A DNA stretch of 64,000 bases from a virus. The notes beneath the pieces were generated by a model. It saw only the letters and a list, made by a program, of their open reading frames with translations, ran no database searches and was not told where the DNA came from. Below, one piece after another: positions 7,287 through 54,772 of the stretch (its first letter is position 1; each line of letters opens with the position of its first letter). The stretch spans positions 37,314-101,313 of the IMG/VR virus record IMGVR_UViG_3300006846_000001. One strand, 5' to 3'. The translations under genes were made by a program, and so were the position numbers.

Positions 7287-8105
7287 CTACCAATCCCAGA
7301 AGGACGCGTGGTGTTTGCGGATGCGCTCAGCGAGGGAGTAGGGCACGACGTGGCGGAAGCCGTGCGCCTCGCCCGTCACGATGTGGCAGATGGGGGCGAT
7401 GACCTCAGCGGGATCAGTAGCACCGCGAAGGTGCGGGTCGTCAGAGGCCGGCCCGGGCTCGTCGAGGGGGTTGCGGTGGCGCAAGTCCCGGGCGGCGATG
7501 GCGGCCCGGTCGAAGCCCGTGTCCAGGAGGCCGGGGTTGATGACGGCCACGCTGATGCCCTGGTCGATACGCTCGACGTGGATGGTCTCGGCGATGCCCT
7601 CGATGGCCCGCTTGGACGCGGCGTAGGCGCCCATCTGCTCCACGGGGATGAGGCCCGAGATGCTCGACATGAACACCAGGCGGCCCCGGGGAGCGTCGCG
7701 GCTCCCGTCGCGCCGGGCGAGGAAGGTGGGCAGGACGGCCCGGGTCAGGGCGTAGGTCCCGAAGACGTTCACGTCGAAGACCTCCCGCATGAGGCTGACG
7801 GGCACGCTCCCGAGGACGCCAGCCTCGATGATCCCGGCGTTGTTGAAGAGGACGTCGACGCGGTGCTGCTCGGCCAGGAGGCCGGCCTGGTTGATGTCAT
7901 CGGTGCGGGTCAAGTCGAGCCGGAAGGGCCGCACATCAAGGGGGCCGGCGTCATGCAACTCGGCCATGTCCAGGAGGTCAGTGACCTGGGGGCGGATCTG
8001 GCAACCGGCGAGGACGGTGTGGCCCAGGGCGCCCAGGGCCAGGGCCACCAAGCGGCCCAGGCCGGATCCGGCGCCGGTCATGAGGATCGTCTTGTGATCG
8101 GTCAC
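7287..8105 (-). CDS. Short-chain dehydrogenase/reductase (SDR)
   Basis: 272 residues from a GTG at 8105 overlapping the stop of the C5 methylase (GTGA). It has the complete SDR signature: cofactor motif TGAGSGLG (residues 10-17), NNAG (88-91), the catalytic Ser near 148, and YAASK (161-165). SDR enzymes carry out NAD(P)-dependent oxidation or reduction of alcohols or ketones in the cytoplasm. The substrate cannot be told. An intact SDR is unusual in a phage, and its coupling to a DNA methylase makes a role in base or sugar modification possible, but that is inference. Confidence 0.8.
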   Translation of the reverse strand: MTDHKTILMTGAGSGLGRLVALALGALGHTVLAGCQIRPQVTDLLDMAELHDAGPLDVRPFRLDLTRTDDINQAGLLAEQHRVDVLFNNAGIIEAGVLGSVPVSLMREVFDVNVFGTYALTRAVLPTFLARRDGSRDAPRGRLVFMSSISGLIPVEQMGAYAASKRAIEGIAETIHVERIDQGISVAVINPGLLDTGFDRAAIAARDLRHRNPLDEPGPASDDPHLRGATDPAEVIAPICHIVTGEAHGFRHVVPYSLAERIRKHHASFWDW

Positions 8106-9751
8106 GCTGCCTCCATGGCCTGTACGACGCGGCCGACGATCCATTGCATCTTGGGGTGCGGGACGGCGTTGCCGGCGAGTTTGATCTGGTGCTTCTTCGG
8201 GAGGTCGGTGGGGATGTAGCCCGGGGGGAATGCTTGGAAGCCGGCGATCTCGGGGGGTTCCAGCATCCGGTATAGGCAGGCGTCAATGGCCTCCTCGAGG
8301 GTGGCCCGGTCCCGTGGGGTGAGGAGGGCCCACGCGTCCTTCGTGAGGATGGTGCCCACCGGGCCGTCCGTGGGTAGGGCCAGGCCGGTCCGGTTGTAGG
8401 GCAGGAGGAGGCTCTGGGCGGCCGTGCTCGTCAAGGTGCGGGCCGGCTCGTCGACGGAGGTGACCATCTCGGCGCCGCCGCGGTTGTTGCGCATGAGGAG
8501 GGCGTGGCGGTTCCCGGAGGTGGTGATGGTCCCGATGGGCTGGTCGGTGGAGCGCGCCGTGTTGTGGGGGTTGTTGGCGATGACCAGCCCGTCAGGTGGC
8601 GGCCCGAGGAGGGCGTGGTGGGTTCCGCCTGCCGTCACGGTGGGTGCTGGGCCGGATGTGGGCCATGCTCGGCCGTTGTTGCGCGACGGGATGATCATCG
8701 GTTCCAGGAGCGCGGGCCGGTCGTCTGACGCGGCGACGGTCCACATGGGCTCCTGCACGCTGCGGGTGCGGCAGTTGTCTGAGCCGCCGTGGTGGGACTG
8801 GACGAGGTAGGGATGCGGCTCCACGAGGGCGTGGGTGGCCGTGGTCGACACGACGGTCAGCGGCTCTGATACGGGGTGGGAGCGGTTGCCGGGGGTGCGC
8901 TCATGAACGTGCCCGGCGCCGGCCGTGACGAGGGGCACCCACCCGTGTTTCACGAGGCCGGCGGCTACCCGAAAGCGGGTGTTGGGGACGAGGGCTTTCT
9001 TGCGGCCGCCGATGGGCTCGGATGGGAGGCGGAAGTCGATCACGTCAGTGGCGGGGCGCACGGGGGGCTCAGCGGGCTTGCCGCAGCGGATGCACGCCCA
9101 GAACCACTGTTGGCGGTAGCGGCCTACCGTCCGGCCGTTCTTCCAGGCTTGGCGCACGGTGGTGGCCACGTCGCAGCGGGGGCAGTGGGCGGGGAGCTCC
9201 AGCTCCAGGTTGGGGCGGAGGCCCGGCCGCCAGAAGACCATGTAGACCCGGTCCCGGCTCTGGGGGATGCCGAAGTGCATGGCGTTGTGGGAGAGGATGG
9301 CGTGCTCGTAGCCGAGGTCCTTCATGGCCTGGAGCCACGACGGGAACAGGACCCAGCGGGTCACCTCCACCACGTTCTCCACGATGACGGCCGCGTAGAT
9401 CATCTGCTCAGCGAAGCGCACGACGTCCCACATCGTGGCCCGGGAGCGTTCGGCGGCCGGGTCGGGGGCGTCCCACAGGGTGGGGTCCTGACGCCGGCGT
9501 GAGACGCCGCGGGCTTGGGAGTGGTTCACGCATTCGGGTGACGCGATGAGGATGTCGGTCCTGGGCCAGCGGCGGGGGTCGACGCCGGAGATGTCGGCCA
9601 GGTCGTGGGCGGCGTTGGGGAAGTTGGCCTGGTGAACGTCGATGGCCACCTCCCAGTGGTTGGCGGCCATCACCAGCTCGACGCCGGCGCCGGAGGCTCC
9701 CAGGCTGGAGCCTCCGGCGCCGCAGAACATGTCGGTGGCCGTGATCGTCAC
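8102..9751 (-). CDS. DNA cytosine-C5 methyltransferase with repeated recognition region
   Basis: 549 residues, GTG start coupled to the upstream gene. Motif I DMFCGAGGSSLG (residues 7-18), motif IV SPEC (71-74) with the catalytic Cys74, an ENV motif VI, QSRDR motif VIII, and AGNAV motif IX are present in order. Between motifs VIII and IX are about six copies of a degenerate unit with a core like P..TVT...HALL, forming an extended target-recognition region. It would methylate cytosines in phage DNA against host restriction. No cognate endonuclease is seen beside it. Confidence 0.85.
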   Translation of the reverse strand: MTITATDMFCGAGGSSLGASGAGVELVMAANHWEVAIDVHQANFPNAAHDLADISGVDPRRWPRTDILIASPECVNHSQARGVSRRRQDPTLWDAPDPAAERSRATMWDVVRFAEQMIYAAVIVENVVEVTRWVLFPSWLQAMKDLGYEHAILSHNAMHFGIPQSRDRVYMVFWRPGLRPNLELELPAHCPRCDVATTVRQAWKNGRTVGRYRQQWFWACIRCGKPAEPPVRPATDVIDFRLPSEPIGGRKKALVPNTRFRVAAGLVKHGWVPLVTAGAGHVHERTPGNRSHPVSEPLTVVSTTATHALVEPHPYLVQSHHGGSDNCRTRSVQEPMWTVAASDDRPALLEPMIIPSRNNGRAWPTSGPAPTVTAGGTHHALLGPPPDGLVIANNPHNTARSTDQPIGTITTSGNRHALLMRNNRGGAEMVTSVDEPARTLTSTAAQSLLLPYNRTGLALPTDGPVGTILTKDAWALLTPRDRATLEEAIDACLYRMLEPPEIAGFQAFPPGYIPTDLPKKHQIKLAGNAVPHPKMQWIVGRVVQAMEAA

Positions 9752-14184: not shown

Positions 14185-15372
14185 CTACGCAGCGGCGGCG
14201 GCCAACTCCAGCGATCGCACAGCGTCAGCCTCCATGGCGTGGGCCGTGTCGGCGTTGAGTTGCTGCTGTGCCGCGGCGGTGACGGCGTGCATCACGCCAC
14301 CGGCGGTGCGGACGCCGCCGTCCATGAACATGGAGAAGACGGATTCGCGCTGGGCGTCGGTGTAGAGGAGGCTCTTGGCCACGTGCTCGATGACGGCGGC
14401 CGGCTCATCGACGGGCGTGCCGGCCAACTCGTTCAGCTCGGCGACCTTGCGCTTCACGTACTCGGCGTCGAGGAAGGTGCGGACGACGTCGGTGGTCTCG
14501 GCCTTGACGAGGGCCAGGTAGGCGATCTGCGTCTCGCGGCTGGGCTCGACGATGCCGGTGTCGGGCTTGCCGCCGCCGAGGTGGACCTTGCGGAACACGT
14601 CGCGCGTCATGGTCATGCCGTTGCCGCAAATCTGGACGGTGAGCTGGGGCGTCAGGGTGTAGGCGCCGCCGCCCGTCTCGCTGTTCGTCAGGACGAACCC
14701 GGCGAAGACGGTGGGGTTCTCGTCGCCCGTCTGGCCGCTGTAGGGCGACCGGTATCCGGCGAGTAGCTCGGGGGCGGCGATGGCCACGGAGGGGGCCTGG
14801 ATCTTGACGTACATGCGCGACTCGGTGAGGTCGCACTGCCCGACTTGGACCTCCAGCCCGGAGGACTGGACGGCGTCGAGGGCGGTGACGAGGACGTCGA
14901 GGTGGTCGATGATGCCGTAGCCCTGGGATAGGACGGCCCGGAGGATGCCCTTGCCCTCGTCGCCGCGGAAGGTCCGCAGGAGCCAGGGCTTCGTGAGGGG
15001 GTCGCCGCCCTCGGTGTAGCCGGCGCACCAGCCGTTCGCTGCGGCGCCTAGGGGGCTGCGGCCGTGCAACATGCCATTGACGGCCACATCGAAGATGTCG
15101 GGGCGCTGGTCGCGGAGGGCCCGCAGGTAGGGGGCGGGGGTGTTGATGCGCTCGGCGAGGCCGCCGATGGCCGTGTCGGTGATGACGTAGGTCCCGTCGG
15201 CCATGGTCACCCCGTCGGCGGTGATCTGCGGGTCGACGCCGGTGATCGTCAGGTTGCCCTCGTGGGCGGCGATGAGGCCGCCGTGGGCTATGACGTCGAC
15301 CTTGCGGGTGTGCTGCTCCTGGAGGAGTTGACTCAGCTCTGCCAGGCCCTGGTTGCGGAGGTCGGTGTGCAT
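14185..15372 (-). CDS. DUF932 family protein
   Basis: 395 residues. The order of conserved segments (N-terminal helix, GGLAERINTPAPYLR, a long central alpha/beta domain with RAVLSQGYGIIDH, and ICGNGMTM near residue 248) matches DUF932, a family common in phages and plasmids whose role is unknown; some members sit beside recombination genes. It has its own operator-type promoter about 50 bp upstream, a proper Shine-Dalgarno (AAGGGGAA), and a terminator behind it. It is therefore an independent unit transcribed with a leader, unlike the leaderless genes. Confidence 0.75.
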   Translation of the reverse strand: MHTDLRNQGLAELSQLLQEQHTRKVDVIAHGGLIAAHEGNLTITGVDPQITADGVTMADGTYVITDTAIGGLAERINTPAPYLRALRDQRPDIFDVAVNGMLHGRSPLGAAANGWCAGYTEGGDPLTKPWLLRTFRGDEGKGILRAVLSQGYGIIDHLDVLVTALDAVQSSGLEVQVGQCDLTESRMYVKIQAPSVAIAAPELLAGYRSPYSGQTGDENPTVFAGFVLTNSETGGGAYTLTPQLTVQICGNGMTMTRDVFRKVHLGGGKPDTGIVEPSRETQIAYLALVKAETTDVVRTFLDAEYVKRKVAELNELAGTPVDEPAAVIEHVAKSLLYTDAQRESVFSMFMDGGVRTAGGVMHAVTAAAQQQLNADTAHAMEADAVRSLELAAAAA

Positions 15373-15419: not shown

Positions 15420-15454
15420 CGGGGAACCTTACCCGGGTTAGTGCGGGGTGTCTA
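15420..15454 (-). promoter_or_regulatory. Operator-promoter of the DUF932 gene
   Basis: Minus strand: TAGACA (-35), 17-bp spacer with the palindrome variant CTAACCCGGGTAAG (15428-15441), TAAGGT (-10). The start codon is about 50 bp further on, so this copy drives a leadered mRNA. Confidence 0.65.
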
Positions 15455-16558
15455 GGCGTTGCGGAGGTACTCGCCGGTGGTGCGGGCGATGGCCTCGTTG
15501 ATGGCCTCGACGTCGCCCTGGCTCCAGCCCTTGTCGGGGTAGGCGGGGCCGGTGCGGGCCATCTGCACGGCGATCTCTAGGGTTGCCTGGGTGGCGGCGC
15601 TCGCGGCCAGTTCCTTGGACATGGCGCGGGGGTGGGGGATGTGCACGGCCAGCCACGGCGTCGGGGTGTGGTTGATGAGGTCGTGGCCGATGACGGCGCA
15701 GCGATGCACGGGCACCTCGGCGCGGGCGACGGCATGCGTCACGGTCTCGCCGGCCAGGAGGACGACCCGGCCCCCGATGTTGGGCAGGATGCGGTGGACG
15801 GCGAACTCCTGCCACGTGACGGTGCTGACGCGGGACCAGTCGGCGATGGGCTCGGGGGAGAGGTTGATGGTGTCGAGGGCGTCAAGGAGCCGCCCGGGCC
15901 CCAGGCGCAGGTACTGCTCCAGGCGCTCGCCTCCCACGGTGCCTATGAAGGGCGCAGCGTCGGCCAGCTCCGGGCGGGGGGCGAGGCCCACGAGGAGGGG
16001 CTTGCGGAGGCCGGCGTCGGCGGGGGCGTGGCGGCAGCCGGTCGCGGCCAGCTCTGCTGCGGTGCCGGTGGGGGAGCCGGGGCACACGAGGCAGCGCATG
16101 CGCCCGAGGTCCGCGGCGACGGCGCTGTACTCGGTGAGGGCGGCGCGGTCCGCTGCGCTGATGTCGCGGTGGGGTGCGCCCACGGCGAGGATCACATGCG
16201 GCGAGTCGGGGCGGGCGGACACGGCGTGGGGCACGGCGCCCTCGACCATGTAGACCTGCCCGGCCTCGGTGGGGTAGATGGTGCCCTCCACGGTGATGGT
16301 GCCGTAGCCGCCCACGACGATCAGGAGGTGGTCGCCGGGGTGGGTGTGGGGGGCGAAGCCCTTGCCGGGAGGCACTGAGATCAGGTCGACGCCCAGGAAG
16401 CCGTTGCCCACGAGGGTGCGGCCCGTCGCCTCGGTGCCGTACATGGGTTGGGGGCCGGGACCGAGGCGGACTTGGACGGTGGACCGGTCAGCGTCCTGGC
16501 CGGTGTGCTCGGCCCACTGGGCGAGGATCAGGGACCCGTCGTCGTGCTGGTACGTCAT
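15452..16558 (-). CDS. Cupin domain fused to UDG-superfamily-like domain
   Basis: 368 residues from the ATG at 16558 (TGATG overlap). Residues about 55-125 form a cupin with PHTHPGDHLLIV and a late His (PHAV). From about 130 there is a linker with CLVC...C, then a uracil-DNA-glycosylase-like region: LLVGLAPRPE replaces the usual motif A, PFIGTVGGERLEQYL follows, and a late VHIPHPR resembles motif B. The motif A acid is not in its normal place, so simple uracil excision is doubtful. Some UDG relatives in phages act in base hypermodification, which fits the neighbours. Last gene of the six-gene operon. Confidence 0.55.
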   Translation of the reverse strand: MTYQHDDGSLILAQWAEHTGQDADRSTVQVRLGPGPQPMYGTEATGRTLVGNGFLGVDLISVPPGKGFAPHTHPGDHLLIVVGGYGTITVEGTIYPTEAGQVYMVEGAVPHAVSARPDSPHVILAVGAPHRDISAADRAALTEYSAVAADLGRMRCLVCPGSPTGTAAELAATGCRHAPADAGLRKPLLVGLAPRPELADAAPFIGTVGGERLEQYLRLGPGRLLDALDTINLSPEPIADWSRVSTVTWQEFAVHRILPNIGGRVVLLAGETVTHAVARAEVPVHRCAVIGHDLINHTPTPWLAVHIPHPRAMSKELAASAATQATLEIAVQMARTGPAYPDKGWSQGDVEAINEAIARTTGEYLRNA

Positions 16559-17178
16559 CACATGCTCCAGATGAGATGGGCCTCGTCGGCTTCTAGGAGG
16601 CGGCCGGCGGGCAGCGGCGCCGAGGACACGGCCGCGTAGTCGCGGGTCACCTCGGCGTACAGGGGGTGGGCCGCTACCCTAACGCCCGTTACCCTCCCGG
16701 CGTACAGCCCGTCCGCGTCTGCCCAGATGAGGGCCTGTGGCGCACGGCATGCCAGTTGCAGGAGGGCGAAGCGGGCGCCCGGTGGGCGGTCCTGGCGGGC
16801 CAGGATGCGGAGGATGGCCTCCGAGTCGATGGTCACCTTGGCGGGGTCCTGGCCGAGGTCGGTGATGCACTCGGCGGTGAGGGTCCCGTTGTGGGCGAAG
16901 GCGACGCCGGCGTCGACCAGGGGCTGGCCCTCGTCAGGGTCGGGGGCGTCGCCGGGCCGGCGGGTGGAGGTGGCGAGGCGGGAGTGTCCAATTGCTATTG
17001 GACCGGGGGCGGGGGCGTCCTGTGCGGTGAGGCGCCCGGGGCGGCGGGTGACGGTCCAGCCTCCGGGGGCGGGGGTGGCCCAGCCGTGGGAGTGCGGGCC
17101 TCGGGCGGCGGCCCCGATGATGGCCGTTGCTCGGACCTCGGGGGGCACCTCTCCGGCGAGGGCTACGAGGCCGCACAT
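16558..17178 (-). CDS. Class II glutamine amidotransferase
   Basis: 206 residues starting MCGL, so processing would expose the nucleophile Cys2. GHSRLAT (64-70), HNGTL (96-100, oxyanion Asn/Gly) and a later DSEAILRIL match the Ntn-type glutaminase domain of GATase class II. It would release ammonia from glutamine for a partner enzyme. No synthetase domain is fused, but two PP-loop proteins lie immediately upstream. A free class II GATase beside PP-loop ATPases recalls split asparagine-synthetase or GAT-QueC arrangements; this is inference. Confidence 0.8.
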   Translation of the reverse strand: MCGLVALAGEVPPEVRATAIIGAAARGPHSHGWATPAPGGWTVTRRPGRLTAQDAPAPGPIAIGHSRLATSTRRPGDAPDPDEGQPLVDAGVAFAHNGTLTAECITDLGQDPAKVTIDSEAILRILARQDRPPGARFALLQLACRAPQALIWADADGLYAGRVTGVRVAAHPLYAEVTRDYAAVSSAPLPAGRLLEADEAHLIWSM

Positions 17179-17939
17179 CGCAGGGCCTCAGCGGCGCCGG
17201 GGATGCCGGCGGTGGCGGCGAGCTCGGCGACGCCGGCGTCGATGCTGGCGACCTCACGCCAGCCGTGGGCGCGGTCGCGTGTCCACTGGCGGGCGGGCCA
17301 CGCTCCCGTTCCGACGCGGAAGCCGCGGGGCCAGCCGTAGCAGGGGGGCAGCGGCGCGCGGTGCGCGCCGAGGACGCAGAGGAGGTCCTCGTGGGACCAG
17401 CCGGCGATGGGCGAGATCCTGTCGAAGCCGGCGCGGTCGCGGTAGCGGCCGCCGCCGGTGTGGTTCCCATCGGCGGTGCGGCGCCCGAGGACCAGAGCGT
17501 CGATGCCGGCCTGTCGGGCGTAGGCGCGTTGGCCGGTGTGCTGAACGAGGCGGAACCACCGGGCCGCCGTCTTGGCGTCTGCGGGGAAGAGCATGTCGGG
17601 GTTGCGGGCCAGCCACGCCAGGTCGAGGGGCCGGGCCTCCACGGTGCAGCCCCATGGCATGTGGTCGGTGGCCCAGGTGAGGAAGGCGGGGTACTCCAGC
17701 TCGGAGATGACCAGGACGCACTCGGTGATGCCGGCCGCCTCACAGACGATGCGTAGGCCCTGGGAGTCCTTGCCGCCCGACCAGCCGTAGGCGACGTGGT
17801 AGCCCTCCGTCGCCTGGCGCAACCAGGCGACGGCGGCCTCCACGAGGCGGCGGGCCCGGGGGACGTCGGGGTGCTGGTAGGCGTCGCGGACGGCGCCTAC
17901 CCAGTCGGCCTGGGTGGAGCGTTGCTTCTGGGGGATCAC
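17163..17939 (-). CDS. PAPS reductase-like PP-loop protein (second copy)
   Basis: 258 residues from a GTG at 17939 coupled to the ParB-like gene (GTGA). The PP-loop SGGKDS is at 54-59. The rest follows the PAPS reductase/ATP pyrophosphatase fold, with an RRTADGNHTGGG loop and the late ISPIAGWSHEDLLCVL segment typical of this family. Such proteins adenylate or thiolate substrates; DndC and IbrA are relatives. It differs strongly from the first copy at 18481, so they probably have different roles. Confidence 0.75.
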   Translation of the reverse strand: MIPQKQRSTQADWVGAVRDAYQHPDVPRARRLVEAAVAWLRQATEGYHVAYGWSGGKDSQGLRIVCEAAGITECVLVISELEYPAFLTWATDHMPWGCTVEARPLDLAWLARNPDMLFPADAKTAARWFRLVQHTGQRAYARQAGIDALVLGRRTADGNHTGGGRYRDRAGFDRISPIAGWSHEDLLCVLGAHRAPLPPCYGWPRGFRVGTGAWPARQWTRDRAHGWREVASIDAGVAELAATAGIPGAAEALRCAAS

Positions 17940-18484
17940 GTGGCGCGGGTCTTGGGGGCGGGGCGCCACGCCTGCCCGAAGCCCTCGGGGCTGGAGCCAC
18001 GCTCCAGCATGTTGCCGCGCTGGAGGAGGCGCTTCACCTCCTCGGCGTCCATGCCCAGCCGGCGGCGGACCTCGTCAGTGTCCATGCCCGACTCGACGAG
18101 GGTGGCCACGATGTCGGCCATCTTCACGACGTGGTGGGTGCCACGGGCTCGGTTGTGGCGCACGGTGGAGAGGCGCCGCTCGGCCTCGTCCTTGTCGATG
18201 GGGACGATGGGCACGTACCCCTCGGTGAGCTTCCACACGTCGGGGTCATCCGAGGTCAGCCACCGGTGGTAGCCGTCGACGACCTCGAAGTGATCGGCGA
18301 TGGTGTCGTGGGGGCCGGCCACGATGGGCTGCGTCCACCCGTCCTCGAGGATGCTGGTTCGGAGGAGCTTCAACTCGGGGGGTGCCACGTGGTTGGGATT
18401 CCAGGCGTTGGCGTGGAGGCGCTCACGCTCGACCCACATGACGTTGCTGATGGGCTGGAGGGGGCGGCCGATGGGGGCGGTCAC
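17936..18484 (-). CDS. ParB-like nuclease-domain protein (second copy, IbrB-like)
   Basis: 182 residues, GTG start coupled to the upstream gene. An N-terminal ParB/sulfiredoxin-type domain has the signature EVVDGYHRWL (about 69-78), followed by a HTH-like helical part (MDTDEVRRRLGMDAEEVKRLL). ParB-like plus PAPS reductase-like pairs are known as IbrB/IbrA; the biochemical role is not settled. Some ParB-fold proteins are NTPases or kinases rather than nucleases. Confidence 0.7.
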   Translation of the reverse strand: MTAPIGRPLQPISNVMWVERERLHANAWNPNHVAPPELKLLRTSILEDGWTQPIVAGPHDTIADHFEVVDGYHRWLTSDDPDVWKLTEGYVPIVPIDKDEAERRLSTVRHNRARGTHHVVKMADIVATLVESGMDTDEVRRRLGMDAEEVKRLLQRGNMLERGSSPEGFGQAWRPAPKTRAT

Positions 18485-19716
18485 TCGATGTCTCCGTTCG
18501 CGCGGGACGCCTCGACGTCCTCCCGGTAGGCGGCCCAGCCGGCGGGGGTGTTGAGGTGGGGCTGGGCTTGCATGATCTCGTTGCGGTCTTTGAGGTCACC
18601 GCGCAGAGCGATGGTCGCCACCCACTCCCAGGAGACGCCGGTGTAGGGGTGGCGGGCCTTGCCGGGAATGGGGTCGGTCGTCTTGGAGTAGTGGTTGCGG
18701 ATGATGCGACGGCACTTGTGGGCGACGAAGCGGCGCACGGCCGGCTCGGTGTGGTCCTCCACGAGGGTCCGCACGAAGGTCTGCCACGTCATGCCGTCGG
18801 GCTTGGAGGGCGCGTCGCCGTAGGCGAACAACTCCGTCCGCGAGTAGCGGGCCCCGCAGGCTGCGCCGGGGACCCGGTACACCATCCGTGACCACAGGTC
18901 CGGGAAGCACGCGGCCCACTGGTCGAGGTCCCGGGCGGGCTGCTCACCGAAGGGCGGCGCTATGCGCTGCTGGGAGGGGGAGAAGCCGTGCATGGATAGG
19001 AGGTCGTAGCTGCGGTTGTAGTCCCATCCGAGGGTGGCCGGCGCCGTCCACACGTCGGCCGCCGTCCAGTCGTAGACGGGATACACCTTGTAGTAGGCGG
19101 GGTTGTCGCTGGGCATCACGAAGTTGTCGGGGCGCTTGTTCGACACGGCCTTGCGGCGGATGATGGACTCGTCGGCCCGGATGCCCATGAGGGCGCAGCT
19201 CGTCCCGTACCGGTCGTGCGGTGACACCAGGTGCGTCATCGTGTCGGGGATGGACATGCGAGCGTCGGGCGGCTCGACGGGGAAGCCGTCGAGCTCGGTG
19301 ATGGCCTCCGGGGGCAGGGGCCACACCCACCGGTCGCGGGCCTCCGGTGCCCATGGCCACCAGTGCGGCTCATCCATGGAGCAGGCGTTGCGGTGCTTCA
19401 CCGGGAGGCAGAACCACTCCAGCCCGACCTCAGGCAGCTCGGCCACGCGGCGGGTGTACTCGATCGTCAGGTCGCTGATGCACTCCTCGTCGAAGAACAC
19501 GACGCGCAGGGGCAGGCGGTCCAACTCGGCGGCCACGGCGAGGGCCACGTTCAGGACGGCGGTGGAGTCCTTGCCCCCGGAGAAGCTGACGAAGACGTGG
19601 TCGAAGCGGGTGTAGGCGTAGCGGGTCCGTTCGAGGGCCGCCTCCCATACGGATTGCCCGGTGCGCTCGCGGCCCCACCAGCCCGTCGCCTCGGGGACGG
19701 CGGGAGTGGCCGTCAT
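18481..19716 (-). CDS. PAPS reductase-like PP-loop protein (IbrA-like, first copy)
   Basis: 411 residues. PP-loop SGGKDS at 46-51, then VVFFDEECISDLTIEY and a long insertion with HWWPWAPEARDRW; later SNKRPDNF and YPVYDWTAADVW are typical of phage/prophage IbrA-like proteins. It would bind ATP and activate a substrate. It sits directly after a ParB-like gene with an ATGA overlap, so the first ParB/PAPS pair is coupled, as is the second. Confidence 0.8.
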   Translation of the reverse strand: MTATPAVPEATGWWGRERTGQSVWEAALERTRYAYTRFDHVFVSFSGGKDSTAVLNVALAVAAELDRLPLRVVFFDEECISDLTIEYTRRVAELPEVGLEWFCLPVKHRNACSMDEPHWWPWAPEARDRWVWPLPPEAITELDGFPVEPPDARMSIPDTMTHLVSPHDRYGTSCALMGIRADESIIRRKAVSNKRPDNFVMPSDNPAYYKVYPVYDWTAADVWTAPATLGWDYNRSYDLLSMHGFSPSQQRIAPPFGEQPARDLDQWAACFPDLWSRMVYRVPGAACGARYSRTELFAYGDAPSKPDGMTWQTFVRTLVEDHTEPAVRRFVAHKCRRIIRNHYSKTTDPIPGKARHPYTGVSWEWVATIALRGDLKDRNEIMQAQPHLNTPAGWAAYREDVEASRANGDIE

Positions 19717-20432
19717 GCCGTGAGGCCGCGGAGGATCTCGAGGAGCGTCTCGACGAGGGTGTCCTTGTTCCGGGCCCCGGCCTGCTGGCGCAGGATGAGG
19801 ATGGCCTCGTCGCGTTGGGCCTGCGTCATGGCCAGCCGGAAGTCCACGACGTCGGTTCCGGTGCGGGCCGTGTCCCGGGCCGGCGCAGCGTCACCATCGA
19901 CGGGGGGCAGGTCCTCCAGGTCGGCGAGGAAGCCGGCTTCCTGGTCGCCGAGGATGCCAGCCTCCTGGATGAGGGCCCGATACTCCTCATCGTCAAAGCC
20001 GGCGCCCAGGGCGAAGCCGGCGACGTCCTGCTCGTAGCGGGCGAGCATCTGGGCCAGCTCGTCGGGCTTCCAGCCGCCCCGCTCGGGGGAGCGGTTGGAG
20101 ACGATCAGGTACTTGTCGGCCTGCTCGTCGCTATCACTGGCCCAGCCGTGCACGACGGGCATCGTCCACCGGCCGTCCTTGTCGACCACGATGCCCTCGG
20201 GGGGGTCGCCACCGGCCGCCTCTTGGCGGATGAGGGACTCGAGGCGGCCGTGCCCCACGACGAGGCGGCCGGTGCGCTGATCCAGGAGGCTGGGCTCGAC
20301 GAACCCGAACTCCTGGATCTTGTCGTCGAGGAAGTCGTCGTCGTGGCCCTTGGGGTTGGCGAGGGCGGGCGTCACCTGGTCGAGGCGGTGGTACTCGATC
20401 CAGCGGGGAGGGTTGGGGGCGGTGGCGGCCAT
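19713..20432 (-). CDS. ParB-like nuclease-domain protein (first copy)
   Basis: 239 residues from the ATG at 20432. The N-terminal ParB-like domain carries LVVGHGRLESLIRQE (about 58-72); the C-terminal part is helical with acidic loops and ends in a basic region. It opens the six-gene operon ParB, PAPS, ParB, PAPS, GATase, cupin-UDG, all with overlapping stops and starts. The start is supported by a TAGGAT -10 box 7 bases upstream. Confidence 0.7.
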   Translation of the reverse strand: MAATAPNPPRWIEYHRLDQVTPALANPKGHDDDFLDDKIQEFGFVEPSLLDQRTGRLVVGHGRLESLIRQEAAGGDPPEGIVVDKDGRWTMPVVHGWASDSDEQADKYLIVSNRSPERGGWKPDELAQMLARYEQDVAGFALGAGFDDEEYRALIQEAGILGDQEAGFLADLEDLPPVDGDAAPARDTARTGTDVVDFRLAMTQAQRDEAILILRQQAGARNKDTLVETLLEILRGLTA

Positions 20433-22610: not shown

Positions 22611-22647
22611 GCCGATGACACTAACCCGGGTTAGCGGCGTCGGTCAA
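22611..22647 (-). promoter_or_regulatory. Operator-promoter (perfect palindrome)
   Basis: Minus strand: TTGACC (-35, 22642-22647), 18-bp spacer with CTAACCCGGGTTAG (22621-22634), TAGTGT (-10), then 7 bases to the ATG. The -35 box overlaps the stop of the helicase gene. Confidence 0.85.
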
Positions 22648-25406
22648 GCCGGGACGTCGGATTCCCTGGTCGCGGCCTCGGGTTGTGGCGGTGAGCTGGG
22701 CTTTGGTTTGGATGATCGGCGCCGCTCGGCGAGGGCGGTGATGGCGTCGGAGAGGTCGCCGGCCGTCTTGTACTTGCCGACGTCCTTGAGCTTCCAGCGC
22801 TTCGCCGCGTCGAGTTGGCGGGGACTGGGCTTGCGCTTGCGCCACCCAGCGTCGGAGCTGGTGAGGCGGGTGTCGCCGTGTAGGCGGGCGTAGTCCTCGC
22901 CGACGCCCTGGCACGTCTCGAGGTCCACGTCGCGGATGAGGGTGCGGGCGCCTTGGGTGGGGTGCTGGTCCTGGACGGCCCACGACTCGTCGCTGTTGGG
23001 GTCGAGTTGGACCATGACGAGGCGGGATGCGCCCTGCCTGCCCAGGGGCAGCACGTAGCGGAGGCGGTCGTCGTTGCGGCGGGGGGCCGTGACCCAGGCC
23101 AGGCCGTCGCCGCGGAGGCGCTTGAAGAGGTCGGCGGCCTCGGCGCGGAGGCGGCCGGCGGCGATCTCAGCCTCTTCGTGCTGGGCGACCAGCACGGACA
23201 CGGGCGCCTCGCCGGTCGTGGCGCGGCGGGCCAGCTTGGCCGGGAGGCCGAAGAGGCTGGGCACGGTGATGAGGCTGTTCTCGCGGGAGGCGCCCACCAC
23301 GTCGAGGACGAGGCAGTCGACCTTGTCAGGGTGCTTGCGGGTGCCGCGGCCGATCATCTGGGTGTAGAGGCCCGACGATTTGGTGGGCCGCCCGATGACG
23401 ATGCAGTCAGTGCGGGGCGCGTCGAAGCCCTCCGTCAGGACCATGCAATTGGTGACGACGTCCACCTCGTGGCGCCGGTACCGGTCCAGGAGGTTGCGCC
23501 GCTCGGTGGGCGGCGTCTTGTCCGAGACGCAGCCGGCCCGGAGGCCGACTTGGCGGCAGGCGTCGGCCGTCTGCTCGGCCGTCTCCACAGTGGGAAGGAA
23601 GGCCAGGGTCAGGCGGTGGGGGGCGTACTCGCGGATGGCCTGGGCGATCGTCCAGGGGGCGCCGGCGTCCTGGAGGGCCCGGCCGGTGTCGCCGGCCTGG
23701 TAGTCCCCGCGGCTCACCTTGACCTTGCCCAGGTCGAGGTCATCGAGGATGACGCGCTGGCCTCGCACGTCGGAGAGGTAGCCGGCGCGGATGCCCCACA
23801 GGATGTCGTAGGTGAAGGCGACCTCATCGAAGACGCCGTCGAGGCCCTGCCCGTCACCGCGTTGGGGGGTGGCGGTGGTGCCGTAGAGGATGGGGCCGCC
23901 GGGCTGGCCGACGCCGCACCAGTCAAAGATGCGCCGGTAGCTCGCGGCGGCGGCGTGGTGCGCCTCATCCACGATGACGAGGCCGAAGGGCCGGCCAGCC
24001 GTCGGATCGGGACCGACGCCGGGCTGCCACTCTGGGCACAGGCGGGCGAGGCGGCGGCGGTTGGCGAGGGTCTGCACGGACCCGACGATCACGTCGGCGT
24101 GCACGCCGTTCTCTGGGCCTTTGACGATGCCGAGGCTGGGCACATCGGGCCACGAGTTGAGGATGCTCTTGACGGCCTGGCGGATCAGCTCGTCGCGGTG
24201 GGCGAGGATCAGGGTGCGCAGCCCCAGCCGCTCGGCCAGCGCGCAGAAGATGACCGTGTTGTGGGTGACGACGTACCCGCGGGTGACGAAGAGGCCGTCG
24301 GGGTTGGCGACCTTGATGCAGACCATCTCGGCGTCGCCGGCCGGCTCGATGCCGGTGATGCGACGCTGGGGGTGGTACTTGGTCCGGGGCTTCCAGGCGT
24401 CGGCCTTGCGCTTCCAGCGGAAGGGGCAGATATCCATGGCGATGGAGAGTCGCCAGGCGGTGCCCTGGTGCTGTTCACCGTTGTAGGTCCAGGTGGTGCG
24501 TTTGTACCTGAGGCGGGCTGTGCCGCCGAGGCTACGGACGAGGTGGGCGGTGTCCTGTGCCAGTTGATGGTTGGCGAGCGTGAGCTCGATGTGACCGTCG
24601 CTAGGTCGCACGTGGCCGTCAGCGTCCATGATGCCGCGGAGGAGGTTGAGCCGGTCCGCTGCGGGGGCGAACTTGTAGAGGTCGGGAACAGCCTTGCTCG
24701 TCGCTCGGCTTCCTTCTAGTCCTAGGACGCGGATGGCGGACAGGATGGGGTTGTCGCCACGGCCGGTGGGTCCTCCGATTATCCAGGTCCCGGCTCCGCC
24801 GCCGCAGTCAGCGAGGCGCTTCCATCGGCAGGGCGCTGGTAAGTCGATGGTCTCGACTAGCTCATCCTCGGTGTGCACCAGGACGCGGCCGGGGACGGAG
24901 AGGCCGCCGTCGCCTAGGAGCACGCCTAGGAGGTACGGGTCGAGGGGCAACGTCACGGCGCTGTGCTGGACTGGTGCTACGAGCGGGGTCTCCCAGCGGT
25001 GGCCGGCTCCTTCTCGGAGGCCAACGTCGAGGAGCTGCTGAGTCGTGAGTGTCCGCCATGGGCGGCCACGGAGGCGGTCGTGTTTGGTGCGGACGGCCCA
25101 GAGGTGGTCGGCGTCACAGACGACTTGCTGCCCCTCGGTGAAGTGCACGCGGTAGGCAGGACGGATGCCCTGGGGGAAGACACCTTCAACCGTGGTTGGA
25201 AGGCCGTCGCCGCCGATGACCTGGTCGCCGGGGGTGAGTCTGCCGATCGGGGTCCAGCCGGTAGGGGTGAGGACAGGCTCGTCAGCGGCGAGGGCTTTCC
25301 CGAGGCCGGTGGCGGCTACGCCCAGTAGACGGCGGACGCCCTCGCCGAGTCGGGCATCGACTCGGGCGAGGGCGTCCTGCTGGTAGGGCCTGGGGGTCAG
25401 GCGCAT
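22644..25406 (-). CDS. SF2 DEAD/DEAH-type helicase interrupted by an intein
   Basis: 920-residue precursor; about 574 residues after intein removal. The Walker A motif AATGLGK-T is split after Lys37 by residues 38-383. The extein then has Thr384 (VIFCALAERLG), motif II VDEAHH, motif III TAT, and motifs V/VI with TEGFDAPRTD and QMIGRGTRKHP, the order of UvrB/RecG-type SF2 helicases. It would unwind or remodel DNA during phage replication or recombination. It follows the small gene at 25418 after 11 bp and has an AGGGGA site upstream. Confidence 0.85.
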   Translation of the reverse strand: MRLTPRPYQQDALARVDARLGEGVRRLLGVAATGLGKALAADEPVLTPTGWTPIGRLTPGDQVIGGDGLPTTVEGVFPQGIRPAYRVHFTEGQQVVCDADHLWAVRTKHDRLRGRPWRTLTTQQLLDVGLREGAGHRWETPLVAPVQHSAVTLPLDPYLLGVLLGDGGLSVPGRVLVHTEDELVETIDLPAPCRWKRLADCGGGAGTWIIGGPTGRGDNPILSAIRVLGLEGSRATSKAVPDLYKFAPAADRLNLLRGIMDADGHVRPSDGHIELTLANHQLAQDTAHLVRSLGGTARLRYKRTTWTYNGEQHQGTAWRLSIAMDICPFRWKRKADAWKPRTKYHPQRRITGIEPAGDAEMVCIKVANPDGLFVTRGYVVTHNTVIFCALAERLGLRTLILAHRDELIRQAVKSILNSWPDVPSLGIVKGPENGVHADVIVGSVQTLANRRRLARLCPEWQPGVGPDPTAGRPFGLVIVDEAHHAAAASYRRIFDWCGVGQPGGPILYGTTATPQRGDGQGLDGVFDEVAFTYDILWGIRAGYLSDVRGQRVILDDLDLGKVKVSRGDYQAGDTGRALQDAGAPWTIAQAIREYAPHRLTLAFLPTVETAEQTADACRQVGLRAGCVSDKTPPTERRNLLDRYRRHEVDVVTNCMVLTEGFDAPRTDCIVIGRPTKSSGLYTQMIGRGTRKHPDKVDCLVLDVVGASRENSLITVPSLFGLPAKLARRATTGEAPVSVLVAQHEEAEIAAGRLRAEAADLFKRLRGDGLAWVTAPRRNDDRLRYVLPLGRQGASRLVMVQLDPNSDESWAVQDQHPTQGARTLIRDVDLETCQGVGEDYARLHGDTRLTSSDAGWRKRKPSPRQLDAAKRWKLKDVGKYKTAGDLSDAITALAERRRSSKPKPSSPPQPEAATRESDVPA
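24258..25295 (-). mobile_element. Class 3 LAGLIDADG intein in helicase Walker A
   Basis: Encodes residues 38-383. The intein begins with Ala instead of Cys or Ser and ends VVTHN before extein Thr384. Trp103 (block B, DHLW), Cys363 (block F, MVCIKV) and Thr381 (block G) form the WCT triplet that defines class 3 inteins, which splice from a block F cysteine. Two endonuclease motifs, LLGVLLGDGGL (159-169) and LLRGIMDADGHV (255-266), mark an apparently intact LAGLIDADG homing nuclease. Insertion at a conserved ATP-binding loop is typical of inteins. Confidence 0.85.
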
Positions 25407-49811: not shown

Positions 49812-50099
49812 TTAGATCTCGATGACGGGCCGAGAGTCGGCCGGCGGCGGGACCGGTGCCGGGAGTACCGGCGGCCGGAGGTGGTCGCGCAGCACGGCGG
49901 CCCGCTCATGGGGCACGGACTCGCGGCCGAGGGCCCGGTCCGCTCGGCGGATGCTCCCCACGTGGGACCGGAAGGACTTGGCCATCCCGACCCAGCCGCA
50001 CGAGCATCGGACGTGGGGCTGGCGGATGTGGCGCTCCCGGTAGCTCCCCCGTCCCAGGCTGGCGGTGCACCCCTCCACGGGGCAGCCGTTGCCCGTCAC
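49812..50099 (-). CDS. Zinc-finger protein, paralogue of the gene at 6725
   Basis: 95 residues, GTG start (GTGA overlap). CPVEGCTASLGRGSYRERH...RCSCGWVG...H aligns closely with the protein at 6725-7051. The C-terminus is Pro-rich instead of Cys-rich. The two copies lie 43 kb apart. Confidence 0.6.
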   Translation of the reverse strand: MTGNGCPVEGCTASLGRGSYRERHIRQPHVRCSCGWVGMAKSFRSHVGSIRRADRALGRESVPHERAAVLRDHLRPPVLPAPVPPPADSRPVIEI

Positions 50100-50821
50100 T
50101 GGGGCGGGGGCCGGTGCTCGGCCAGGCGGGCGTAGAACAGGTCCCTGTCGACGTGGAGGCCGTCAGTGGCGAGTTGGTAGGTGGCGTCGACGGGGGCCGT
50201 CCCGAAGACGTGGTGGAGGTGCTGGATGATGGCCTTGGGGGCCTTGGCCCACATGTTGGGGCCCTCGTCGGGGGCGCCCGTGCGCCCGTCGGGGTGCCGG
50301 TTCTTCGCTGCGGCCATGATCTCAGCGTCGACGTAGTAGTGCCGATAGCCCTCGTGGCACACGACGCCCGGGCCGTCGAAGCTGGCGCCGTAGGCGTCCA
50401 CGTAGGCCCGGGAGATGAGGGGGTGGGAGGGGCCGGCGGCGTCCTTGTGGAAGCCCAGGTCGTTCGTGTTCACGACGCTGGCGCCCGTCTCCTGGGCGAC
50501 GGTCAGGACCTCATCGAGCCACCCCGCGTGGAAGCGCACGTCATCGCCGAGGAGGAGCATCCACGGGGCTGGCGTCCCGAGGTCGGGGATCTGGCGGTAC
50601 GCCAGGTTCACCTTCCTCGAGAAGGTCCCCGGCTCGTCGCAGACCATCACGTCAGCACCTACTTGCTGCCAGGCGCGTGCGGTGGCCACGTCCCGCTCCG
50701 ACGCGATCGCGACGAGGGCGACCCTGTCCATGTCCACGCTCTCGCGGAGGCTGTGCACGAAGGGCCGGGCGCTGTCGGGGCGCCACAGCACGGGCACGAT
50801 GAGGTCTACGACGGGCTCCAT
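50096..50821 (-). CDS. Glycosyltransferase, GT-A type
   Basis: 241 residues. An N-terminal Rossmann-like strand (VDLIVPVLWRPD), then LLLGDDVRF near residue 89, the metal-binding acidic motif, and a C-terminal acceptor region with GVVCHEGYRHYYVDAEI. It would transfer a nucleotide-activated sugar in the cytoplasm. Last enzyme of the glycosylation island; overlaps the next GT by 16 bp. Confidence 0.7.
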   Translation of the reverse strand: MEPVVDLIVPVLWRPDSARPFVHSLRESVDMDRVALVAIASERDVATARAWQQVGADVMVCDEPGTFSRKVNLAYRQIPDLGTPAPWMLLLGDDVRFHAGWLDEVLTVAQETGASVVNTNDLGFHKDAAGPSHPLISRAYVDAYGASFDGPGVVCHEGYRHYYVDAEIMAAAKNRHPDGRTGAPDEGPNMWAKAPKAIIQHLHHVFGTAPVDATYQLATDGLHVDRDLFYARLAEHRPPPQ

Positions 50822-51429
50822 GACCTGCCCTCGTTCCAGTCGCCGAAGCGGTAGAAGACGGTGCGCTGGCCGGTGGCGTAGAAGCGGGCGCCAGAGGTGA
50901 CGAGGCGCCGCCAGTTCGTCCAGTCAATCCACGTGCCGGACCCGGGTAGCGAGCCGGGCGGCGCCGGCTCAGCGTCCACCCACCGACCGAAGGCTGAGGC
51001 GCGGGCCACGACCATGGAGGGGACGAACCAATTGTCCCGCATGATGTCCGCGAAGTTGGTGCGGGGATCCCCGGCGACCTCACCGGCGCAGCGGCGCACG
51101 AGGGGCGGGCGGCCGCCGGTGGTGGTGCAGTCCGCGACGATCACGTCGTGGCCAGCGTCGAGGTGCTCCTCGGCGATGGCCAGGTGGCGGGGCGTCCACG
51201 TGTCATCGTCGTGGAGGAAGGCGTAGGCGAGCTCGGTGGCGTCCTGCCCGGAGGATCGGTCGGCCGCCTCCAGGAGGCGGTTCATGTTCATCACCTCACC
51301 GACGCCGGCGTAGTCGACGCCGATGAGGAGGTGGTCGGGCTGGCGGGTCTGGCGGTACACGCTGTCGATGGCCTCGGCCAGCAGGTCCCCGCGTGAGGGG
51401 AGGCTGACGCAGATGGCGGCGATCTCCAC
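50806..51429 (-). CDS. Glycosyltransferase family 2-like
   Basis: 207 residues from a GTG at 51429. The start VEIAAICVSLPSRGDLLAEAI followed by RQPDHLLIGVD and YAFLHDDDTW (catalytic DXD, about 88-96) is typical of GT2 nucleotide-sugar transferases. Acceptor unknown. Confidence 0.7.
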   Translation of the reverse strand: MEIAAICVSLPSRGDLLAEAIDSVYRQTRQPDHLLIGVDYAGVGEVMNMNRLLEAADRSSGQDATELAYAFLHDDDTWTPRHLAIAEEHLDAGHDVIVADCTTTGGRPPLVRRCAGEVAGDPRTNFADIMRDNWFVPSMVVARASAFGRWVDAEPAPPGSLPGSGTWIDWTNWRRLVTSGARFYATGQRTVFYRFGDWNEGRSWSPS

Positions 51430-51431
51430 GG

Positions 51432-51953
51432 TCAGCGCCTGGCGGTGGCGTAAACGTCGCCGTGCTGGGCGCCGGGCCGCAACGCGGCCGGGACGCCGCG
51501 GGCCTCGCGCACGACGGCCGATGAGTAGGACCGGGACAGGATGCCGGACAGCTCTGTGGAGTCGATGTTCTCGTAGAACTCGCCGGGCCGGAGGGCCCCG
51601 CCATCCTCGGCCGAGTGGGGCAGACGCCCGGGGCCCGCAGCGGTGAAGATGAGGTACCCGTCCGGGCGGAGGAGGGTGGAGGCGTGGGTGAGGTGGTCGC
51701 GCCAGTCGGGGGTGTGCTCGGCGACCTCCAGGTGAAGGATCATGTCGAAGGGCTCGGCCTCGCCGTGGTAGTGCAGGAAGTCGCACTGCACGTCGACGCC
51801 GGGGCCTGGGCGAATGTCCAGGGTGGTGTAGCTGGCGGGGGTGAAGAGGTCCCGGACGGTGCCGTTGATGTTGCGGCCGCCCACATCCAGGATGCGGGCC
51901 TGGTGGCCGGCGGCGGCGAAGCGTTCTACCCACTGGCGGGCGTCGAGGTGCAC
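51432..51953 (-). CDS. Class I SAM-dependent methyltransferase
   Basis: 173 residues from a GTG at 51953. ILDVGGRNINGT (motif I), FDMILHLEVAEHTPDW and LLRPDGYLIF follow the Methyltransf_11 order. It lies between two glycosyltransferases, so a sugar or glycan methylation role is likely. Confidence 0.7.
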   Translation of the reverse strand: MHLDARQWVERFAAAGHQARILDVGGRNINGTVRDLFTPASYTTLDIRPGPGVDVQCDFLHYHGEAEPFDMILHLEVAEHTPDWRDHLTHASTLLRPDGYLIFTAAGPGRLPHSAEDGGALRPGEFYENIDSTELSGILSRSYSSAVVREARGVPAALRPGAQHGDVYATARR

Positions 51954-51962
51954 GGGTCGTCC

Positions 51963-52715
51963 TTACGCGTCGGGGTCGTGGATGAGGGGCTGGGTGACGT
52001 ACTGGTCCCACCAGGCGTCCAGGGTGCCGGCGGCGGCCATGCCGGCGAGGTCGCGCCAGTAGGACCCTGATGATGCGCGGGCTGCTCCGGCGGCGTTGTA
52101 CGCCTCCATGCCGTTGCGGATCTTGCGGCGCAGGTGGTCGAGGCTCCTGAACTGGTAGTGGCGGCAGCCGAGGGCGTGGTGGTGGACGCGGTGGCCGGCG
52201 CCGTCTACGCCGTGGTTGCCCATGTGAAGTCGGGCGTAGGGGTTGGCCCGGAAGACGACTTTCGGGAGGGGCTCGGGGCCGGGGGTGCGCCACAACATCC
52301 GGGTGATGGGGTTGGGGTCGTCAGCATCGTCGCCGGGTTGGGGGACCATCACGTACGGGCGGGCCGTCAAGATGTCGTAGGGCGGGTCCTCGCGGAGCTG
52401 GTCGAGGTGGTACCACGCTTCGTCCGCGTCCCAGGGCACGACCCAGGTGGCGCCCATCTGCCACGCCTGGTGGGCCAGGCCCGTCATCTTGTCATCCTGG
52501 TAGTAGGCGGGCTCGGGGTCCTCGATGACGGTGACGCGGGAAGTGGTGGTGGGCGGCGGCATGTTCCGCTCGGCGTACGCGATGGCGGCCTCGACGCACC
52601 CGTCCACGGACCGGTTGTCAGCGATGATCACGTGGTCGACTTGGGCGAGCATGTGCTCAAGCGTCCACGGGAGGATGTCCGCCTCATCCCGGACCATCGT
52701 TATAGCTATAAGCAA
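51963..52715 (-). CDS. Glycosyltransferase (GT92/GT2-type)
   Basis: 250 residues from a TTG at 52715, with AGGAG 11 bases upstream. The start IAITMVRDEADILPWTLEHM is the family hallmark, followed by VDHVIIADNRSVDG and PWDADEAW (metal site). A His-rich C-terminal part follows. Transfers a sugar to an unknown acceptor. Confidence 0.75.
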   Translation of the reverse strand: MLIAITMVRDEADILPWTLEHMLAQVDHVIIADNRSVDGCVEAAIAYAERNMPPPTTTSRVTVIEDPEPAYYQDDKMTGLAHQAWQMGATWVVPWDADEAWYHLDQLREDPPYDILTARPYVMVPQPGDDADDPNPITRMLWRTPGPEPLPKVVFRANPYARLHMGNHGVDGAGHRVHHHALGCRHYQFRSLDHLRRKIRNGMEAYNAAGAARASSGSYWRDLAGMAAAGTLDAWWDQYVTQPLIHDPDA

Positions 52716-52790
52716 GAGTCGGCTCCTTCCAAGGACTTGGCGAGTGGGACCTGCGCCCCGGTCATGAGCTGATGGCGATGAGCTTCACGG

Positions 52791-53399
52791 CTAGCGGCGC
52801 AGGAAGAGGGCGTCATCGACGCGCTGGAGGGGAGCGAAGCCCCCGTTGATGGCCTGGTCGACGGTGGCCTGGATGCCGGGGATGGGCACGTCGTGGAACG
52901 CGAGGATGCCGGCGGGAGCGATGCGGGGCGCCCAGATGAGGAAGTCGTCCATGACGGTCTGGTCGTCGTGGCCACCGTCGATGAACAGGAAGCTGATGGG
53001 CGTCTGCCAGCGGCGGCCCACGATGCCGGACTTGCCCACGACGGGCACGACGTGGTCCTCGAGGCCGGCCACGTGCATCGTCCGTTGGAAGAAGGGCAGG
53101 CTGTTGAAGCGCCCGTCGGGGCCGACCATCTCGGGGTGGTGGCACTCGCGGCCCGGGGCCATCTCCGGTGACCCGCGGTGCCAGTCCACCGAGTAGAGGA
53201 TGGTGCTGTGCTGGCGGGCGGCCTCGCCGATCCAGCAGGCGCTCTTGCCGGCGTAGCCGCCGATCTCCACGAGGGGCAGGCCGGGGTGGGCCTGGGCGGC
53301 CATCGCGGCGTGACGGGCCAGCTCGGGGCCCTCAGAGGGGTGGAGCCACCCCAGCGCGTCCTCGGCGGCCTTGCGCCATGTCTCGGTAGGACCAGTCAT
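52791..53399 (-). CDS. Class I SAM methyltransferase (Methyltransf_24-like)
   Basis: 202 residues; ATG at 53399 lies 8 bases after TAAGGT within an operator variant (53410-53423). LVEIGGYAGKSACWIGEA (motif I, about 43-60), SFLFIDGGHDDQTVMDDF and GGILAFHDV-like ends match enzymes that methylate sugars. It overlaps the acyltransferase gene by 68 bp. Confidence 0.65.
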   Translation of the reverse strand: MTGPTETWRKAAEDALGWLHPSEGPELARHAAMAAQAHPGLPLVEIGGYAGKSACWIGEAARQHSTILYSVDWHRGSPEMAPGRECHHPEMVGPDGRFNSLPFFQRTMHVAGLEDHVVPVVGKSGIVGRRWQTPISFLFIDGGHDDQTVMDDFLIWAPRIAPAGILAFHDVPIPGIQATVDQAINGGFAPLQRVDDALFLRR

Positions 53400-53940: not shown

Positions 53941-53969
53941 CCCGGGACGGTATCCCGGGCGGGGCCGGT

Positions 53970-54008
53970 GGCGGGGCACCTCGAATGGGGCGTAAGAGGC
54001 GCCCCGCC
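53970..54008 (-). terminator. Hairpin, 8-bp stem, after the LPXTG gene
   Basis: GGCGGGGC (53970-53977) pairs with GCCCCGCC (54001-54008) with a 23-base loop, 10 bp after the stop at 54019. Confidence 0.45.
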
Positions 54009-54018
54009 AGCGGAGGAC

Positions 54019-54696: not shown

Positions 54697-54721
54697 AGGG
54701 CTTCCTTCCCTGGGGGGTTGG

Positions 54722-54765
54722 TAAGCCAGCGACCCTAACCCGGGTGACCACCCGTGCGCGCAACC
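54722..54765 (-). promoter_or_regulatory. Operator-promoter variant of the LPXTG gene
   Basis: Minus strand: GTCACCCGGGTTAG (54734-54747, 12 of 14 matches), TAGGGT (-10), and about 30 bases of leader with a GGAAGGAAG Shine-Dalgarno. The -35 box is weak. Confidence 0.55.
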
Positions 54766-54772
54766 CGGCCGA

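Follow-up and report, generated by a model that had tools for sequence, protein, structure and literature searches.

A widespread phage gene cassette with a core of IbrA/IbrB type and an exchangeable supplier gene, a candidate system for DNA hypermodification

In phage 9g the Gat-QueC and DpdA proteins place dG+ in DNA, and some phages with systems of this type carry the transporter YhhQ (PMC6884629). CmoX and CmoY perform an amide-forming hypermodification of DNA, and their genes frequently have neighbours encoding ParBc domains (PMC12783734). DndC has the cysteines of a 4Fe-4S cluster together with paired cysteines (PMC10853773). We have analysed a stretch of 64,000 nucleotides (nt), termed the window, that lies inside a 101-kb viral record (IMG/VR IMGVR_UViG_3300006846_000001, positions 37,314 to 101,313). 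The window contains a six-gene operon, A to F, that encodes two ParB-domain proteins (A, the counterpart of a protein we call ParBa, and C, ParBc), two PP-loop proteins (B, PP1; and D, PP2), a class II glutaminase (E) and a cupin protein (F). An earlier note on this DNA proposed that the operon modifies the bases or backbone of DNA, perhaps by amidation or thiolation. We find that the operon is one version of a large and widespread cassette of phages and prophages, where transporters or an aminotransferase pathway can take the place of the glutaminase; that note had foreseen neither the spread of the cassette nor this exchange.

Single-sequence scans with D, E and F gave almost nothing, and the family emerged once an alignment of three PP2 sequences (D and two relatives) was used. 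Searching with this alignment gave 130 related stretches in IMG/VR (80 of them retained) and another 64 in the collection of species genomes; further loci were added by a second alignment, built from actinobacterial copies of PP2. A total of 181 distinct loci with 154 distinct PP2 sequences were studied, with near-copies included, and the counts that follow are not independent. Every locus was translated in six frames and searched with hidden Markov models (HMMs) of the neighbourhood clusters. In the first gene calls, shadow open reading frames (ORFs) masked the genes for glutaminase and cupin in loci of high GC content, and GC-phase scoring brought these genes back.

The earlier note had suggested looking for the same gene set elsewhere. 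About 180 further loci contain these genes together, so their association is beyond chance. PP2, PP1, ParBa and ParBc occur together in 105 of the 108 loci that have at least 5 kb on each side of PP2, and in 148 loci a terminase large subunit gene follows downstream at a distance of at most 2.9 kb (median 885 nt). Many copies reside in prophages. Lysogens with the cassette that are available from culture collections include Anaerotruncus colihominis DSM 17241 (L116) and Acetatifactor muris DSM 23669 (L110), both of the symporter type, Streptomyces sp. NRRL B-1347 (L141, DegT/inositol-phosphate synthase type) and Streptomyces cavernae (L101, glutaminase type). PP2 is rare in actinomycete genomes (2/392 and 1/396, each count including a centre genome known beforehand), and in INPHARED it was found in one record alone, an unannotated record from the gut. 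Broad occurrence of the single genes apart from the set was named at the outset as evidence against a joint function. This is the case for the PP1/ParB pair, which stands alone in 28 loci resembling IbrAB, but not for PP2, which is almost never found apart from the gene set. In one locus (L152, 1796-3162) the PP2 and glutaminase genes overlap and stand by themselves, with neither PP1 nor ParB; a methylase-like gene comes next, and the pair is a possible minimal unit.

Exactly one of five supplier modules (Table 1) is found beside PP2 in 177 of the 181 loci, and no locus has two types. The other four have no known supplier, and two of these (L025 and L077) end at PP2 through the end of the contig. 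Most supplier genes either overlap PP2 or directly adjoin it; the glutaminase gene comes straight after PP2 in its 15 loci, overlapping it or lying within about 20 nt in the loci measured, and in L039 it is encoded on the opposite strand. On a tree of PP2 sequences the supplier labels cluster, requiring about 12 changes compared with 42 when the labels are shuffled. The ABC module appears at three separate places, and c38 accounts for up to four changes. The PP2 of the window is on a long branch, and its exact position is uncertain.

In a comparison with solved structures, the symporter is most similar to DUR3, a urea symporter (9.5e-27), and next to a choline transporter (3e-22); sugar carriers follow at 1e-10. 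The c38 protein has no match in Pfam, NCBIfam or the PDB. Judged from their families, the DegT aminotransferase and inositol-phosphate synthase would yield an amino-cyclitol or amino sugar. The simplest common denominator of the PP2-linked modules is a nitrogen nucleophile, because the glutaminase, the urea/choline-like symporter and the DegT/inositol-phosphate synthase pair would all fit. Three further observations concern the slot. In L142 (2-1434) RimK-like ATP-grasp genes lie just upstream of a broken PP2 that has no known supplier, which might be a sixth type or chance. In a group of Bacteroidota loci (L036, L051, L125, L127, L130-L132, L138, L167, L170-L172) a gene for a protein of about 200 amino acids with a signal-peptide-like start, c68, lies between the symporter and PP2, and perhaps encodes an outer-membrane pore paired with the inner-membrane symporter. 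In L144 (7431-8845) two genes between the inositol-phosphate synthase and PP2 resemble lipopolysaccharide glycosyltransferases of family 25 by eye; they have no Pfam match, and hint at a glycosylated side group.

A scan with PP1 was used to collect loci in which PP1 and ParBc stand without PP2. A supplier or cupin is present in none of the 28 loci that have the IbrA/IbrB-like pair alone (L249-L276). Comparison of supplier presence in these and in the PP2 loci gives a Fisher p of about 5e-30, a value inflated by related loci. Among 52 better PP1 matches (L197-L248), ParBa, PP1, ParBc and a cupin are found together in 40 and PP2 in 11. Two of them, L245 and L248, join cupin, PP2 and glutaminase, which is the gene set of the window; L245 keeps ParBc and the terminase too, and L248 ends after PP1. 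The window thus has the most complete gene set of what is a modular family, one that rests on an IbrAB-like core.

The six ORFs of the window follow one another on the minus strand, from 20432 down to 15452, with a GC-phase coding signal in the expected phase. The coordinates and the ATGA, GTGA and TGATG junctions were found as first described, with overlaps at all five. Four nucleotides are shared at the A/B (ATGA) and B/C (GTGA) junctions. D and C overlap by 4 nt (GTGA) if D starts at GTG 17939, or by 34 nt if it starts at the upstream GTG 17969; the former is more likely, as it fits the start of the homologues. The D/E overlap is 16 nt, and the E/F junction can be read as GTGA or TGATG.

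Table 1. Genes of the A-F operon in the window, and the supplier modules found beside PP2 in the 181 loci
Feature	Position	Strand	Length (amino acids)	Loci	Matches and remarks
A, ParB-domain protein 1, distant ParBa counterpart	19713..20432	-	239		phrog_620 1e-18; 18 bits to the ParBa HMM built here
B, PP1, IbrA-like PP-loop protein	18481..19716	-	411		PAPS_reduct 1.6e-9, DUF3440 3.3e-12 (Pfam); phrog_2302 4e-82
C, ParB-domain protein 2, ParBc/IbrB-like	17936..18484	-	182		phrog_2159 2e-64
D, PP2, second PP-loop ATPase, marker gene of the cassette	17163..17969	-	268		phrog_424 6e-12
E, class II glutamine amidotransferase	16558..17178	-	206		GATase_6 3e-4 (window copy), 2.4e-9 (homologue)
F, cupin (~11-181) and orphan C-terminal domain (~184-369)	15452..16561	-			Cupin_2 6.5e-11; PDB 9ug7 2.8e-40 over 11-181
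Supplier: SSS sodium:solute symporter				129	SSF 1.5e-23 (Pfam)
Supplier: c38, divergent multi-membrane protein				26	Symporter-like by eye
Supplier: class II glutaminase				15	Window, L006, L007, L011, L039, L042, L053, L058, L101, L149, L152, L157, L169, L179, L183/L185
Supplier: ABC permease and NMT1/THI5-type binding protein				4	NMT1 3e-28 (Pfam)
Supplier: DegT pyridoxal phosphate aminotransferase and inositol-phosphate synthase				3	L141, L144, L181; DegT 2.5e-54 and 3.4e-44, Inos-1-P_synth 1.6e-31 (Pfam)

Most of the family labels given to these genes in the earlier note stood, namely the two ParB proteins, the PAPS-reductase-like B, the second PP-loop protein D, the glutaminase E and the cupin half of F. 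The IbrB/IbrA-like pairing was also borne out, with the DUF3440 gene B beside the ParBc gene C. The ParBc motifs DGxHR and NRARG are kept in 99% of 146 homologues of C, and in the PADLOC comparison a ParB domain like that of A was found in a type II methyltransferase model. The exception was the second half of F, which had been likened to a uracil-DNA glycosylase. The Pfam UDG profile gave no match up to E=10 against F or the whole 101-kb record, and a role of this kind had no support from Pfam, PDB or tblastn against phages. The C-terminal half of F has no Pfam match. It contains the motif-like stretches GLAPR...PFIGTVGG and IPHPR, a resemblance seen by eye alone, and the AlphaFold model of F has a predicted local distance difference test (pLDDT) score of 44, too poor to judge the fold.

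The amidation part of the original suggestion is favoured by the residues kept in the glutaminase and by its place next to PP2 in 15 loci. The class II catalytic residues C2, R67, N97, G98 and D118 are kept in 14 of 14 aligned homologues. Because they are kept in all aligned copies, E should release ammonia, and it is the predicted supplier for PP2. The AlphaFold model of PP2 (pLDDT 94.4) has the fold of PAPS reductases and N-type ATP pyrophosphatases, with matches to PAPS reductases, FAD synthase, GMP synthetase, TtuA, TilS, NcsA and NAD synthetase. The PP-loop motif SGGKDS, which conforms to the SGGxDS of the PAPS reductase CysH, is invariant or nearly so in both PP1 and PP2. Among these enzymes, TilS joins lysine to a cytosine in tRNA.

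With two ParB-domain proteins in each cassette, and terminase genes close by in most loci, DNA is the predicted target. We have also looked for the known routes to modified DNA. No TGT/DpdA was found in 14 cassette-bearing records, that of the window's own virus among them, and no hydroxymethylase of the thymidylate synthase family was found in the same 14; the records may be incomplete, and several are fragments. CmoA, which makes Cx-SAM, was not found in the window's own virus. A cytosine-C5 methylase was over cut-off in 1 of the 14 records, again the window's own virus, 5.7 kb from the operon. Since the tested handle and transglycosylase routes were not found, the enzymes may act directly on a canonical base, if DNA is the target. 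The methylase gene (window 8102-9751, minus strand) has an unusual SPEC motif and overlaps by 4 nt a short-chain dehydrogenase gene (7287-8105, minus strand), downstream of the operon. A dehydrogenase gene of this kind is also present within the cassette of the relatives L235 and L238, and the methylase/dehydrogenase pair is possibly a second modification unit.

We consider the chances to be about even that the A-F operon is a late phage DNA-hypermodification cassette of IbrA/IbrB descent, attaching a nitrogen group, either ammonia or an amine, to the phage's own DNA. We infer DNA as target, an amine as donor and the individual chemical steps as follows. The ParB-domain proteins would dock the enzymes on the phage DNA. 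PP2, with PP1 or alternating with it, would then spend ATP to adenylate a site in a base, or else a small carboxylate attached to that base, and a nitrogen nucleophile would displace AMP in the manner of TilS or of the Gat-QueC of the archaeosine pathway. In the phage of the window E would free ammonia from glutamine to serve as the nucleophile, and the cupin F, which binds metal, might process the product or a precursor. In the relatives the nucleophile would come from the symporter, the ABC transporter or the DegT/inositol-phosphate synthase pathway. The modified DNA would be packaged, protected from host nucleases.

It is possible, and we put it forward tentatively, that a fixed PP-loop/ParB machine either puts an amine in place of a base position or joins one to it, the exchangeable slot setting which amine is used. 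The DNA of related phages would then differ in its chemistry although one core makes it, and this would be a widespread and undescribed class of hypermodification. The supplier slot would make the chemistry predictable phage by phage. If true, this would be a new route to modified DNA, with phages importing or making the group that they attach. In the literature covered, which took in few subscription papers and preprints, no description of the cassette was found. Phage DNA hypermodification is itself a known kind of function, and there is a substantial chance that the cassette forms a new class of it.

A number of observations weigh against attachment of a nitrogen group to phage DNA. The operon of the window is not beside a terminase gene. 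The PP2 fold is generic and by itself has no preference for amine chemistry; it cannot decide the reaction, because its matches span many PP-loop enzymes. The symporter is placed with urea and choline transporters by sequence similarity alone, and no curated NCBIfam cut-off was reached. Some loci lacking PP2 have a TctC-type solute receptor in a related position, and the NMT1 proteins resemble the sulfonate-binding proteins SsuA and TauA, so not all suppliers are clearly amine carriers. One cysteine of PP1 is kept at 97%.

Residence in prophages would also suit a function in defence or anti-defence that leaves packaged DNA unmodified, acting through nucleotide pools, a signal nucleotide or superinfection exclusion, and proteins of the ParB/Srx and PP-loop folds occur in defence islands too (PMC10853773, PMC12839542). 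We nevertheless regard this as rather unlikely. No PADLOC system was matched, save for weak PP-loop and methyltransferase-ParB similarity, and most relatives have the terminase neighbours expected for a function at the time of packaging.

The conserved PP1 cysteine and the resemblance of the NMT1 proteins to sulfonate-binding proteins would fit a different chemistry, in which thiolation of a base or of the DNA backbone falls to the PP-loop pair, as with DndC, and the suppliers bring sulfur compounds. PP1 also matches PAPS_reduct and, weakly, DndC. Yet PP2 has no invariant cysteine among its homologues, CxxC is present in 7/154 PP2 and 3/152 PP1 sequences, and the PAPS-reductase catalytic motif ECG[LI]H is present in none (0/154 and 0/152). 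As cysteine motifs are rare or absent in both proteins, PAPS reduction and the usual thiolation mechanisms are disfavoured, and with them the thiolation part of the earlier proposal. Moreover the glutaminase, the aminotransferase with inositol-phosphate synthase and the urea/choline-type symporter supply no sulfur. Sulfur chemistry is thus unlikely.

An RNA or protein target, such as tRNA, the capsid or the terminase, appears improbable. The characterized PP-loop amine ligases and thiolases act mostly on tRNA, and TilS, TtuA and NcsA are among the fold matches of PP2. The two conserved ParB-domain proteins and the terminase adjacency point instead to DNA, and no tRNA-specific domain (THUMP or PUA) was found in Pfam scans of the window genes. 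Very improbable is an auxiliary metabolic cassette, in which a genuine PAPS reductase and nutrient uptake boost the sulfur or nitrogen metabolism of the host: a C. clostridioforme prophage with PHROGs 424 and 2302 is annotated with phosphoadenosine phosphosulfate reductase under host metabolism (PMC11318856), and the annotation as an auxiliary metabolic gene was also made in a Psychrobacter phage (PMC10434257), but the reductase's catalytic cysteine motif is in no homologue, the genes keep a fixed association with terminase and with the two ParB proteins, and the glutaminase and DegT versions lack the transporter types seen in other loci. By context, phage "PAPS reductase" genes of this family look like parts for DNA modification rather than auxiliary genes of sulfur metabolism.

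Other features of the window were noted in passing. ARAGORN called a tRNA-Gly at 14238-14327 (plus strand), opposite a gene of the phrog_1362/DUF932 family (14185-15372); this is probably a false positive, or else very oddly placed. An apparent intein interrupts the Walker A motif of a 920-amino acid helicase (22644-25406, minus strand), with TGLGK before the insert, which ends in VVTHN, and TVIFC after it; the insert partly matches terminase and primase PHROGs, probably through shared inteins. A run of genes in the tail-gene region (50096-56103, minus strand) resembles small glycosyltransferases and methyltransferases by eye.

Of the known systems, IbrA/IbrB, which is known for activating the eib genes of prophages, is shared at the level of the core. 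PP1 and ParBc are of the same families, and a DUF3440 gene adjoins a ParB-like gene, the two overlapping in the window. The window differs by having, besides these, another ParB, the separate PP-loop family PP2, a cupin and a glutaminase; in its relatives transporters or amine-forming enzymes join the core, which lies next to the terminase. The Gat-QueC/DpdA system of phage 9g similarly uses an amidotransferase together with a PP-loop ATPase to attach a nitrogen-containing group to the DNA of the phage (PMC6884629). Unlike it, the cassette is without TGT/DpdA in the 14 records, has separate genes for the glutaminase and PP2, and includes two PP-loop proteins and two ParBs. The CmoA/CmoX/CmoY system, which makes the glycine amide of carboxymethylcytosine, has in common ATP-dependent amide formation on phage DNA and ParBc neighbours (PMC12783734), but the virus of the window is without CmoA and the operon is without an asparagine-synthetase-like ligase. 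DndC belongs to the same PP-loop superfamily, yet its Fe-S and dyad cysteines are not kept in PP1 or PP2. By the features tested, the whole cassette lies outside the Dnd, 7-deazaguanine, hydroxymethylpyrimidine and Cmo systems, and its core is of the IbrA/IbrB type.

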